Source of the DNA: a virus | DNA length: 25,069 nucleotides | Reading direction: 5' to 3' (one strand) | IMG/VR virus record: IMGVR_UViG_3300043434_000052 | Span: 1-25,069 of that record | Part shown: positions 184 through 3,380 of the stretch, piece after piece | How positions within the stretch are numbered: the first letter of the stretch is position 1 | Layout of the letters: every line of letters begins with the position of its first letter | The notes under the pieces: model-generated | Seen by the model: only the letters and a program-made list of their open reading frames with translations | Told to the model about the DNA's origin: nothing | Database searches by the model: none | Position numbers and translations under genes: made by a program

Positions 184-966
184 TCACACGCTTTCAGGTA
201 TGTCGTCCATATACATATACTCAGGATTAAATGCCAGCCACACATTTAGATTCGCGTTAGCATCTGCTTTGCCATAGCGATTCTTAACTGGTGCTACTGC
301 CATTGAAGTTCCCACAACTCCAAGTGTAGCAATAAGTGCTGGAAGTTGCGCCACTTTTCCCTGCAATGCAGAGCGTGGTTGGCAAGGTCTACCCTCTACC
401 GCTTCAGATGTATGGTGCAATACAATAATGCCAGCGTTAGTATGACGGGCTAGGAACTTTAACTCTTTCATAATGGCACGCATTGAGGCAAACTCTTCGC
501 CACCATCAGTTGCAATATCCATCAGGTTATCTACGAAGATAGCCACAGGTGGACATCCCCATAGTTCTTCAAATGCTTGAACCTCTTCATCAATATCTTG
601 TAGTGTTGGTGAAGATTCAAATGACCACACAATATGGCTACCACGAGCAAGGGTTGCTTTAGTCCAACCAGTATCGTTCTGTAGTAAATGCTCAACGTCA
701 GTTTGATTCTTACCTGAAATCATTGAGGCTAATCGCATAGCCATTGTATGTGCATTGGTATCTGCTGAGATGTAAAGAGTTGGAACTCTCATCTTAAGTG
801 CTAAGGCTAGGGCTAGTGTTGACTTACCTACGCCTGGCGTACCCGCCAACATAGATACTTCTGCCCTACGAAATATAATCTTGTTTGTATCAAATGCTCT
901 GAATACAGATGGCAATGGTTCTCCACCAATGTCTGCTCTGCCTACGCTACGAACTAATGTTCTCAT
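184..966 (-). CDS. RecA/DnaB-type ATPase (replicative helicase-like)
   Basis: The 260-aa protein is a single RecA-fold ATPase core. Walker A is GTPGVGKST at residues 42-50, Walker B is VAIFVD at 141-146, and a beta strand ending in two histidines (IIVLHHT, about 180-186) is typical of the DnaB/RepA-like motif H3 region. A late LQGK followed by KNRYGK (about 201-233) resembles the C-terminal loops of these ATPases. It lacks the N-terminal DnaB domain, so it is a stand-alone motor: a replicative helicase, a RepA-like hexamer or a recombination ATPase. The ATG at 966 has a strong SD (ACAGGAG) eight bases upstream. It follows the zinc-ribbon-like protein gene in the replication operon and lies one base before the next gene. 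Confidence 0.85.
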   Translation of the reverse strand: MRTLVRSVGRADIGGEPLPSVFRAFDTNKIIFRRAEVSMLAGTPGVGKSTLALALALKMRVPTLYISADTNAHTMAMRLASMISGKNQTDVEHLLQNDTGWTKATLARGSHIVWSFESSPTLQDIDEEVQAFEELWGCPPVAIFVDNLMDIATDGGEEFASMRAIMKELKFLARHTNAGIIVLHHTSEAVEGRPCQPRSALQGKVAQLPALIATLGVVGTSMAVAPVKNRYGKADANANLNVWLAFNPEYMYMDDIPESV

Positions 967-1039: not shown

Positions 1040-1432
1040 TTAGTTAACTGGCTTGCACTGGTCAGCACCCTGCGGTTGAGGGCAAGACCAGAATGCGTAT
1101 GGTTGACCAGTCTTCTTTGATACACCGCTTCGGAATACACGTGCGCCGTGTACGCAAGTAGGGCTAGTAGTACCTGTACTTGACGGAGCCGCTGCCTGGG
1201 TTGGAGCGGAGGATGTGAATGGCGGAGTGCTTGGCGTGGAAGCGGTTGTCTGCAGGGGGGCTACATTGTATGCCGCAACTACTAGACGCTGAACGCTTGC
1301 AATCTGTGGTGAGTAATCACCAATGCCCTCTAGCAATACTGATAGTTCATCAGCAGTGTTAGCGCGAATGTTAATCATATCCCCTGCTGGGGTCTTGTAA
1401 GAAACCTGTAGTTTCCAGTCTTCGTTATTCAC
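1040..1432 (-). CDS. Hypothetical protein with C-terminal zinc-ribbon-like motif
   Basis: The 130-aa protein has three parts. An N-terminal alpha/beta domain of about 58 residues includes WKLQVSYKTPAGDMINI. A Pro/Ser/Thr/Ala linker covers about 59-91. The C-terminal tail has Cys93, His95, Cys117 and Cys126 in the pattern CxHG...C..C, which looks like a small zinc ribbon. The start is a GTG at 1432 preceded by a strong SD (ACAGGAGG), and it overlaps the end of the 41-aa ORF. Tails of this type occur on small replication-region proteins of actinobacteriophages. A single-strand DNA-binding or helicase-accessory role fits the position between nuclease and ATPase, but is inferred. Confidence 0.75.
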   Translation of the reverse strand: MNNEDWKLQVSYKTPAGDMINIRANTADELSVLLEGIGDYSPQIASVQRLVVAAYNVAPLQTTASTPSTPPFTSSAPTQAAAPSSTGTTSPTCVHGARVFRSGVSKKTGQPYAFWSCPQPQGADQCKPVN

Positions 1433-1550
1433 TATCTTCCTCCTGTGTTGTTAAATTGCCAAGCAACATTCTTGCTTCAGCCTTTGTAATTACTTTCAGG
1501 TCTAAGGCAACAAGGATGTCCTGACCTGAGATGTTGTAATTGATATTCAT
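1425..1550 (-). CDS. 41-aa hypothetical protein, translationally coupled
   Basis: This short gene has an ATG at 1550-1548 that overlaps the TAA of the nuclease fragment (TAATG). Its TAA at 1427-1425 lies just inside the next gene, whose GTG is at 1432. The product starts MNINYNISGQDILVALDLKV and ends with an acidic QEEDSE tail. Without it a gap of about 117 bases would separate two tightly packed genes, and both junctions overlap in the way typical of this genome. The middle, ITKAEARMLLG, reads like a short helical DNA- or protein-interaction segment. I do not recognise a family. Confidence 0.65.
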   Translation of the reverse strand: MNINYNISGQDILVALDLKVITKAEARMLLGNLTTQEEDSE

Positions 1551-2155
1551 TACTTCTCTTTCGTAAATGTGCAGTGTTCTGTTAATCCACAGAAACTACA
1601 ACTGGATAGATTCGGTAGAAATATACCAGACTTGCGAGCCTTATCAAAGCCAGCCACCATAAATTCTAGTTTGTCGTAGGTATAGTTACTGAGGTCAATC
1701 ATCTCTCCTGTCCCTGCCTCACGGCTCATCCAGTAGTTACCTAGATTGACTTGCACACCAAAGGTTTGTTCCAACCCAATCTTGTAGAAACCAAGTTGAA
1801 GAAACGAAGTTGGTCTGCGTGCTGATGTCTTAAGGTCAAGAATCACAAGTTCTCCATTAACCTCAAACACACGGTCAATCACCATCTTCACAGGCACGTC
1901 TGCGATTACGGGATTGAGTTCTATTTCAATGGCTCTCTCACCTTGAGGTGTTCGCCATATCTTCCATTCAGGATTGTTCTTACGCCATAAGATGTACTGC
2001 TCTACCCATACAGGTCCTTGCTCATTCCACCAGTTAGCGTCTTCCTTATTTGGATTTGCTTTGGTTGCTCTGCCAGCAACACGAGCATTAGTTAAATCTA
2101 TATCTTTAGTTTCTTTAGCCCAAGCCTCAGCCCATAGGTTAACAGTCACAATCAT
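1550..2155 (-). CDS. Cas4/RecB-like PD-(D/E)XK nuclease, C-terminal catalytic part
   Basis: The 201-aa product carries the catalytic core of a Cas4/RecB-like nuclease. Asp94 sits in VKMVIDRVF and DLK at 107-109 in LVILDLKTS (the D-x-K motif). Q120LGFY124 matches the QxxxY motif. Cys186, Cys189 and Cys195 near the C-terminus match the three clustered cysteines that bind a 4Fe-4S cluster in Cas4/AddB-type enzymes. The fourth cysteine and the conserved N-terminal His are missing here but present in the gene at 2410-2598. The ATG at 2155 has its own SD (ACAGGAGA), and an in-frame TGA three codons upstream rules out a longer start. It would process DNA ends in replication or recombination. It may work only together with the separate N-terminal fragment. 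Confidence 0.82.
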   Translation of the reverse strand: MIVTVNLWAEAWAKETKDIDLTNARVAGRATKANPNKEDANWWNEQGPVWVEQYILWRKNNPEWKIWRTPQGERAIEIELNPVIADVPVKMVIDRVFEVNGELVILDLKTSARRPTSFLQLGFYKIGLEQTFGVQVNLGNYWMSREAGTGEMIDLSNYTYDKLEFMVAGFDKARKSGIFLPNLSSCSFCGLTEHCTFTKEK

Positions 2156-2417
2156 TTCTCCTGTTCATCTGTGTTGCAATCATACCTTTAAGTAAGTCAA
2201 CTTGATTTTTAAGAGAATCGCTTCGCTTAACTTCTCTATCTAATTTATCTTTCCAAAACTTAGCCTGTTCAGCAGGGTCAGTTGGAATACGCTCACCATA
2301 CCAAGTTCCCTCTAACGACTTAAGTGTTTGGTTAACTAAGTTCTGGTATCCATACTCAATTAAGTTTACTGCAACGTGTTCAGGCTTTGATTCTTCTGTT
2401 TTCTTTTTCCTAGTCAT
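2139..2417 (-). CDS. 92-aa hypothetical protein lying between two nuclease fragments
   Basis: The product begins with a basic stretch (MTRKKKTEESK). A segment with GTWYGERIPTDPAEQAKFW follows, and then a predicted helix or coiled coil (about 55-82, many Lys/Asp/Leu), ending RRNDCDC. No HNH, GIY-YIG or LAGLIDADG motif is visible, so it does not look like a homing endonuclease. The ATG at 2417 overlaps the TAG of the 62-aa gene, and its TAA lies inside the start of the 201-aa gene. Both neighbours look like parts of one nuclease, so this ORF appears to have been inserted into that gene. It could also be a partner subunit. Function unknown. Confidence 0.75.
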   Translation of the reverse strand: MTRKKKTEESKPEHVAVNLIEYGYQNLVNQTLKSLEGTWYGERIPTDPAEQAKFWKDKLDREVKRSDSLKNQVDLLKGMIATQMNRRNDCDC

Positions 2418-2598
2418 TTAGTTTGTCCCACTCTTCAGTTGCTGCGTGGAATGCACGACCACCAGCAGACCATACGCTAGGTTCTTCAGGTAGTTGTAGT
2501 AAGCGACCTAAGTAATACTGATAGCCACAGGTCAGATAAGTTGTGAATGCTGAGTACGAGATGTGTCCAGGCAATTTGTAGTCGCCAAGTTGAATCAT
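2410..2598 (-). CDS. N-terminal fragment of Cas4/RecB-like Fe-S nuclease
   Basis: This 62-aa product matches the first segment of Cas4/RecB-type exonucleases. ISYSAFTTYLTCGYQYYLGR (13-32) is the usual S-x-x-x-(Y/F)-x-x-C-x-x-x-(Y/F) start, including the first Fe-S cysteine (Cys24). GGRAFH (46-51) supplies the conserved G...H of the nuclease. It stops after EEWDKLND, exactly where intact relatives continue into the LWAEAW region that opens the 201-aa product. The ATG at 2598 has a strong SD (ACAGGAGA) seven bases upstream. It is the first gene of the left operon and is preceded by a structured leader. Either the two parts reassociate or the nuclease is decayed. Conservation of all motif residues favours function. 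Confidence 0.78.
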   Translation of the reverse strand: MIQLGDYKLPGHISYSAFTTYLTCGYQYYLGRLLQLPEEPSVWSAGGRAFHAATEEWDKLND

Positions 2599-2603
2599 TA
2601 TTT

Positions 2604-2668
2604 TCTCCTGTTCTTTTACTACTTAAACCCCTCGGAGGACAGGAGATGCTCAACGAGGGGCTTAAGTA
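2604..2668 (-). promoter_or_regulatory. Structured 5' leader with anti-SD loop (candidate translational switch)
   Basis: In the minus-strand transcript the segments 2668-2654 and 2634-2620 form a 15-bp stem with one G-U pair (2661/2627). The 19-nt loop contains UCUCCUGU (2646-2639), the exact complement of the ACAGGAGA Shine-Dalgarno at 2611-2604 of the 62-aa gene. Pairing of loop with SD would make an H-type pseudoknot and hide the ribosome site. The geometry is easier if the A/U-rich lower stem opens and the 7-bp CCCCUCG/CGAGGGG part stays. The pairing is seen in the sequence; regulation is inferred. Confidence 0.5.
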
Positions 2669-2678
2669 AATCTATTAA

Positions 2679-2766: not shown

Positions 2767-2792
2767 CACACTACTTTTAGAAAGTCAAATTG

Positions 2793-3380
2793 ATGAGTGA
2801 CCGACACGCCGAGGATTTTCCTAATTGGTTTGAGATGACCCCAGCAAAACAGAACTTTGAAATCTTCCTGAGTGGATTCAAAGATGAACCTGATTTGCAG
2901 TATCTTCAGTTGGGTGCATACACAGGTGATGCTTCGCTCTGGCTACTGGAGAATGTACTGACCAGTCATACCAGTCACCTGACTGATGTAGATACTTGGC
3001 AAGGTTCAGATGAGGAAGAGCATCACAAGATGGACTTCACTGATGTAGAAAAAGTTTATGACTTAAGACTTAAAGATAATCCTAAAGTTACCAAAGTTAA
3101 GTCAACTTCACTTAACTTTCTACGCACAGCACCACTCAACTTCTATGACTTCATCTACGTTGATGCTGACCATACAGCCATAGGCGTACTGCTTGATGCT
3201 GAATTATCTTGGGACTGTCTTAAGTCAGGTGGTGTCTTAGCCTTTGATGATTACGAGTGGAGTGATGGCAGAGGGGATAACTTCCGCCCTATGCCTGGCA
3301 TCAATTCGTTCCTTGATAGACACAAAGGGCAGTGGCTACCTGTCCAAAAGAACTGGCAACTCTGGATTCAAAAGATTTAG
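2793..3380 (+). CDS. Class I SAM-dependent methyltransferase (Methyltransf_24-like)
   Basis: This is the only plus-strand gene. The product (195 aa from ATG 2793) has a Rossmann methyltransferase core. YLQLGAYTGDASLWLL (37-52) is the SAM-binding motif I, DVDTW (65-69) the following acidic strand, FIYVDADHT (120-128) and GGVLAFDDYEW (146-156) the later strands. This layout matches Methyltransf_24-type small-molecule or sugar O-methyltransferases rather than DNA methylases, since no NPPY/DPPY motif is present. A TTG directly upstream (2790) is possible, but ATG is preferred. Its SD is weak (AGAAAG), unlike its neighbours. It faces the lysis operon and is bounded by an A/T-rich promoter region and terminator-like hairpins. 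I infer an accessory gene modifying host or virion glycans or a metabolite. Confidence 0.82.
   Translation: MSDRHAEDFPNWFEMTPAKQNFEIFLSGFKDEPDLQYLQLGAYTGDASLWLLENVLTSHTSHLTDVDTWQGSDEEEHHKMDFTDVEKVYDLRLKDNPKVTKVKSTSLNFLRTAPLNFYDFIYVDADHTAIGVLLDAELSWDCLKSGGVLAFDDYEWSDGRGDNFRPMPGINSFLDRHKGQWLPVQKNWQLWIQKI

Follow-up and report, generated by a model that had tools for sequence, protein, structure and literature searches.

The window analyzed here spans 25,069 nucleotides and is an entire virus record, a 25-kb phage contig. On its minus strand, two short open reading frames (ORFs) of 62 and 201 amino acids (aa) flank a third of 92 aa, and a hairpin lies upstream of the group. We refer to the products of the two outer ORFs as the N-chain and the C-chain. 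The features of the locus are as follows.

184..966, minus strand: DnaB-like replicative helicase (phrog_243), downstream of the C-chain gene on the same strand; Pfam/PHROG matches, as in PA6 and mycobacteriophages.
1040..1432, minus strand: L5-gp49-like protein of 130 aa; C-terminal match to Pfam Phage_gp49 (L5/D29).
1550..2155, minus strand: C-chain gene, 201-aa ORF from ATG 2155; PDDEXK_1 and PHROG 1870 matches, alignment.
2139..2417, minus strand: 92-aa ORF between the N-chain and C-chain genes; ORF list, relatives, alignment with L001/L003.
2140..2410, minus strand: inserted DNA, 271 bp relative to the insert-free allele L001/L002, between AAATGACTA and ACCTATGGGC; offset of 443 compared to 172, alignment.
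2155..2166, minus strand: second copy of GAACAGGAGAAA, within the 92-aa ORF, serving the C-chain start; sequence search, alignment.
2410..2598, minus strand: N-chain gene, 62-aa ORF; PDDEXK_1 and PHROG 1870 matches, relatives, alignment.
2602..2613, minus strand: ribosome-binding site of the N-chain gene, GAACAGGAGAAA; sequence search.
2619..2669, minus strand: leader hairpin directly upstream of the N-chain gene; covariation in an alignment.

The neighborhood is similar to that in PA6 and mycobacteriophages, where a DnaB-like helicase likewise follows the exonuclease. The PHROG family name of the protein at 1040-1432, "ribonucleoside reductase class II," looks doubtful for a protein of 130 aa. 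Divergent from the nuclease operon, a 196-aa ORF (2790-3380, plus strand) resembles by eye a SAM-dependent methyltransferase and is a candidate for one.

The 62-aa and 201-aa ORFs match consecutive parts of the same nuclease profiles. In Pfam PDDEXK_1, positions 1-50 are covered by the 62-aa ORF (33.2 bits) and positions 67-176 by the 201-aa ORF (29.7 bits), against a gathering score of 22. The phage exonuclease family PHROG 1870 is divided in the same way, with positions 11-62 falling to the 62-aa ORF and positions 92-289 to the 201-aa ORF (E = 1.7e-44 for the latter). On sequence grounds, such complementarity is far beyond chance. When joined, the halves align over their full length, with nothing missing, to gp37 of Propionibacterium phage PA6, to Bxb1 gp62, Sheen 72 and Priamo 77 of mycobacteriophages, and to Hiro 56 of a Rhodococcus phage. 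The alignment with these single-chain homologs places the cut just after the GxxxH(x3)E helix that bears the catalytic histidine. The N-chain thus holds the N-terminal part of the PD-(D/E)XK fold, the first Fe-S cysteine (Cys24) and the nuclease histidine (His51, in GGRAFH), and the C-chain holds ID94, D107LK109, Q120xxxY124 and Cys186/189/195. The initial annotation had assigned these residues to the two products, had read them together as one complete Cas4/RecB-like Fe-S nuclease and had proposed the end-to-end alignment; both the positions and the reading are borne out. The profile of CRISPR Cas4 (PF01930) gave 19.2 bits with the C-half, below its cutoff of 22.7, and no match with the N-half, and a single-protein query of a genome collection returned no cellular or prophage relatives.

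To survey related phages, in which the initial annotation had suggested looking for the same split, we scanned IMG/VR with each half, which returned 449 and 525 relatives, and fetched the best 80 per scan. A DNA pattern scan of IMG/VR gave further relatives, and the total was reduced to distinct proteins, leaving 127 N/C pairs; IMG/VR contigs account for nearly all of these, and a cultured phage record (OX376641, LanE43-AprF5) for one. The split is observed in every one of these 127 pairs from aquatic actinophages (best 80 of 449 and of 525, plus the pattern scan) and persists where the C-half has diverged to 43% identity. The halves overlap directly, with no insert, in 123 pairs. The overlap is 8 nt in 90 of them, mostly ATGACTAA or ATGAGTAA, and otherwise 20 nt (12 pairs), 11 nt (11 pairs), 4 nt (9 pairs) or 1 nt (1 pair). 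OX376641 has the same arrangement with an 11-nt overlap, and its phage, LanE43-AprF5, is one of two cultured phages of 'Ca. Planktophila' whose isolation has been reported (PMC10202952). Finding the split in a cultured phage links the clade to the Nanopelagicales and rules out a metagenome assembly artifact. Within a phylogenetic tree, all of the splits group in a single clade (support 0.98), to which the single-chain proteins of Cutibacterium phages, mycobacteriophages and Rhodococcus phages are sister and outgroup. Because of this topology, the tree favors a single fission, in an ancestor of the aquatic actinophages.

Inserts separate the halves in 4 of the 127 distinct pairs: the window and L003, which carry the 92-aa ORF, L072/L074, and L165/L211. 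The L001 allele lacks exactly the 271 bp found in the window and is 97-100% identical to it around the junction and 82-87% in one later stretch. The start ATG of the 92-aa ORF, inside AAATGACTAG, occupies the position of the ATG that begins the C-chain in insert-free relatives, and the inserted ORF supplies a new ribosome-binding site close to its own end. A near-identical allele has the split without the ORF, the split predates the insert, and the view that the 92-aa ORF is what divides the gene is not supported. Comparing positions 2139-2417 of the window with L003:947-1225, we found a dS of 0.08 for the 92-aa ORF and of 0.45-0.49 for the flanking halves, a disparity that suggests recent exchange or transfer of the insert between phages. 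The L072/L074 junction is filled by an unrelated 71-aa ORF (L072:2790-3001), and the L165/L211 junction by a 107-aa homolog of the 92-aa ORF, about 42% identical to it, together with an ORF of ~220 aa. These different natural inserts leave both halves intact. Homologs of the 92-aa ORF were found at this junction only, in two lineages, and it has no significant match in Pfam or PHROG; on these grounds we rejected its assignment as a homing endonuclease or as a member of a known family. The boundary between the half-genes is also a repeated site of insertion, with different ORFs in window/L003, L072 and L165/L211.

The 12-mer GAACAGGAGAAA occurs exactly twice, ahead of the N-chain gene at 2602-2613 and again at 2155-2166. 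The initial annotation had pointed out these same 12 bases before both halves, and the two exact copies are real, but their identity is partly a coincidence around an AGGAG core, because the second copy belongs to the coding sequence of the 92-aa ORF and reads GAACAGGAGAGA in L003, the sole close relative carrying the insert. An AGGAG does precede each half, as expected from the proposal that each has its own strong Shine-Dalgarno (SD) sequence; the second, however, sits just 2 nt from the annotated ATG (2155) of the 201-aa ORF. A GTG at 2149, two codons past this ATG, is 8 nt from the AGGAG and aligns with the ATG of the relative. In the window, this GTG is therefore the likelier start of the C-chain.

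Many aquatic actinophages have this leader hairpin, placed before the nuclease gene or before a different gene farther upstream; where an N gene has no hairpin in front, one often stands ahead of another gene upstream. In an alignment of 33 examples, the sequence of the 16-pair stem differs near-completely between phages and the loop, TTGAGTACTCTCCTGTCCTC, is nearly constant. Two-sided changes occur in 16 of 19 pairs, 98.4% of cells pair, and none of 500 shuffles reached the observed value. The loop CTCCTGT(C) is complementary to (G)ACAGGAG, the Shine-Dalgarno/ribosome-binding site downstream. No Rfam family matches the window at gathering thresholds, and we propose the hairpin as a candidate new regulatory RNA element.

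One contig, L207, carries the halves re-fused into a single 253-aa ORF (L207:2203-2964), which could be an error. Relative to its cousins, a 16-nt deletion removes the stop/start overlap, and the fusion is derived, since L207 is nested inside the split clade in the tree. Because the gene has been re-fused here, separateness of the chains would not be essential. We used this natural, unaltered single-chain sequence for structure modeling. AlphaFold2, run with 39 natural sequences, gave a model with a mean pLDDT of 78 and a pTM of 0.77 that is poor at about residues 61-90, after the junction; an earlier L207 model had a poor N-part. The best Foldseek matches were ACE1 (9iab, E 3e-8, TM 0.59) and AdnA (6ppr, TM 0.62), followed by MGME1, AddB, Dna2, EXO5 and type I-C Cas4. 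A profile search against PDB sequences agrees with these matches, and a PDB sequence search with the C-chain alone returned none. The model supports the fold predicted for the assembled enzyme, as distinct from the heterodimer itself.

Together, these results make it quite probable that the pair is a two-polypeptide Cas4-like (PDDEXK_1) Fe-S exonuclease, derived from a single ancestral fission, whose chains would co-fold around a cluster bridging both. In the window alone, the two short fragments of one enzyme resemble a broken gene, yet 127 distinct pairs, drawn from many separate assemblies and including that of a cultured phage, share the junction, with motifs and codon constraint intact. 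Indeed, CGxxYYL, GxA(F/V)H, MxxDR, D(L/I)KT, QL(A/G)FY and Cx(2-3)Cx5C are all present in 127 of 127 pairs, as are the catalytic motifs GxxxH, D, D/E-x-K and QxxxY, distributed over the two chains, and the four Fe-S cysteines, one contributed by the N-chain (C24) and three by the C-chain (C186/C189/C195). Pairwise dN/dS values have medians of 0.107 (N-half) and 0.120 (C-half); they come from a simple counting method on non-independent pairs and serve as a guide only. We conclude that both halves are under purifying selection and functional. The earlier argument from intact motif residues against decay is strengthened accordingly, as no pair has lost catalytic residues from either half, and the only uninterrupted relatives are distant single-chain homologs and the derived re-fusion in L207. 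Given the relatives, the isolate and the dN/dS values, we rejected a pseudogene or an assembly or sequencing error, whose probability is negligible. The C-chain carries the metal-binding D, DxK and QxxxY core and three cysteines, so it might be imagined to be the enzyme by itself, with the 62-aa protein a dispensable relic or regulator. We consider this unlikely: the N-chain is as constrained as the C-chain, its Cys24 and His51 are always kept, and it adjoins the C-chain at every locus but six, where the contig ends close to the C-chain and so omits the N-half.

The way in which the halves are expressed bears on a further alternative, that a programmed ribosomal frameshift joins them into a single chain. 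In 114 pairs the C-half is read in frame +1 with respect to the N-half, which it nearly always overlaps directly, as such a mechanism would need. However, it is in frame +2 in 12 pairs and in frame 0 in one, and the +2 pairs, 10 of them without any insert, belong to deep lineages with ATGA, GTGA or TAATG junctions. An in-frame start codon for the C-half is observed in all 127 pairs (ATG in 124, GTG in 3) and shifts position as the overlap changes; pairs that lack the ATG of the 8-nt overlap start the C-half instead at an in-frame ATG farther upstream. Moreover, the window, L003, L072 and L165 have complete ORFs separating the halves, a gap that a frameshift cannot bridge. Because the frame differs between lineages and a start is always present, separate initiation is favored, and we rejected a programmed-frameshift gene, which would have a conserved direction and site of shift and need no start of its own for the C-half, as very unlikely. 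Just 35 of the 127 pairs have an SD-like 4-mer ahead of the C start, so translation of the C-chain must usually depend on coupling, and coupled re-initiation is its likely mode in the insert-free form. We give about as little credence to the idea that the 92-aa protein is an obligate third subunit, or that its insertion created the split. The distant phages L165/L211 have a homolog of it at this junction, which speaks for such a role, but 123 of 127 pairs have no insert at all, L001 is a near-identical allele without it, an unrelated ORF fills the same site in L072/L074, and its low dS suggests that it was exchanged recently. The initial annotation had left the 92-aa protein as insert or partner; the 271-bp difference from L001 upholds the insert, and the many pairs without it count against a needed partner. 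The 92-aa ORF is more plausibly a late, small passenger gene at a permissive cistron boundary that may have some role with the nuclease and is probably not a required partner.

For the two-chain enzyme, gene layout and knowledge of the family suggest coupled translation, a heterodimer, a bridging cluster and exonuclease activity. The ancestral fission would have cut the chain just past the helix with the catalytic histidine. From one mRNA, the N-chain would be made first, and ribosomes ending it would re-initiate on the C-chain a few bases away, at overlaps such as ATGACTAA or ATGA. The two chains would then fold together into one nuclease, with one N-chain cysteine and three C-chain cysteines ligating a single Fe-S cluster and with an active site composed of the N-chain histidine and the C-chain D/DxK/QxxxY. 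Judging from its position, the enzyme may act in phage DNA replication or recombination, like the neighboring helicase. No extra dimerization segment has been added at the split point, so association of the chains would rest on the native interface alone. We lean slightly toward the stricter reading of an obligate heterodimeric Fe-S nuclease, fixed in this phage lineage, with two separately translated chains ligating one cluster 1 + 3 as an intermolecular "iron staple." If so, cluster assembly itself would join the enzyme, in a lineage whose hosts are among the most abundant bacteria of fresh water. With a minimal nuclease domain divided midway through its Fe-S site, this system is a natural case in which to ask whether two chains can be held together by an Fe-S cluster; L207 would serve as a natural re-fused control, and a phage-host pair is available in culture (E7/F5 on 'Ca. 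Planktophila'). For annotation, many aquatic phage exonucleases are preceded by a 62-aa "hypothetical protein" that should be regarded as part of the enzyme.

The closest known systems are the pfam12705 Cas4-like exonucleases of phages, including PA6 gp37, Bxb1 gp62 and the mycobacteriophage "Cas4 exonuclease" (PHROG 1870; PMC5704561, in which the word "split" does not occur). The proteins described here share with them whole-length homology, the catalytic and Fe-S motifs and the placement upstream of a DnaB-like helicase. Whereas those enzymes are one polypeptide, here there are two ORFs in different frames, some with whole ORFs between them. Membership in the family thus holds in all but the single-chain feature, and the pair is a split variant of it. 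Functional split enzymes are known from other phages, such as Aeh1 nrdA (split by mobE), gene 43A/43B of Aeromonas phage 25 and the T4 topoisomerase genes (PMC2988022), as well as the split PolIII alpha and RNA polymerase subunits of jumbo phages (PMC7824862). These are likewise one chain elsewhere and reassemble from separate chains, some with ORFs at the split. They are large, however, mostly polymerases, reductases or topoisomerases, whereas the present case is a minimal, single-domain Fe-S nuclease of ~260 residues, split clade-wide. Aeh1 nrdA owes its split to a homing endonuclease, whereas the 92-aa insert has no match among known endonuclease families. Our search of the literature available without subscription found no account of a split Cas4-like or RecB-like Fe-S nuclease. 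Among enzymes of solved structure, AdnA/AdnB, AddB, ACE1, EXO5, Dna2 and Cas4 share their fold with the fused cousin L207 and have the same order of motifs, Cys - His - D - DxK - QxxxY - three Cys. In those enzymes, the Cys1-to-Cys4 staple closes within one chain. In contrast to these AdnA/AddB/Cas4-type nucleases, the staple of the aquatic actinophage enzyme would bridge two.
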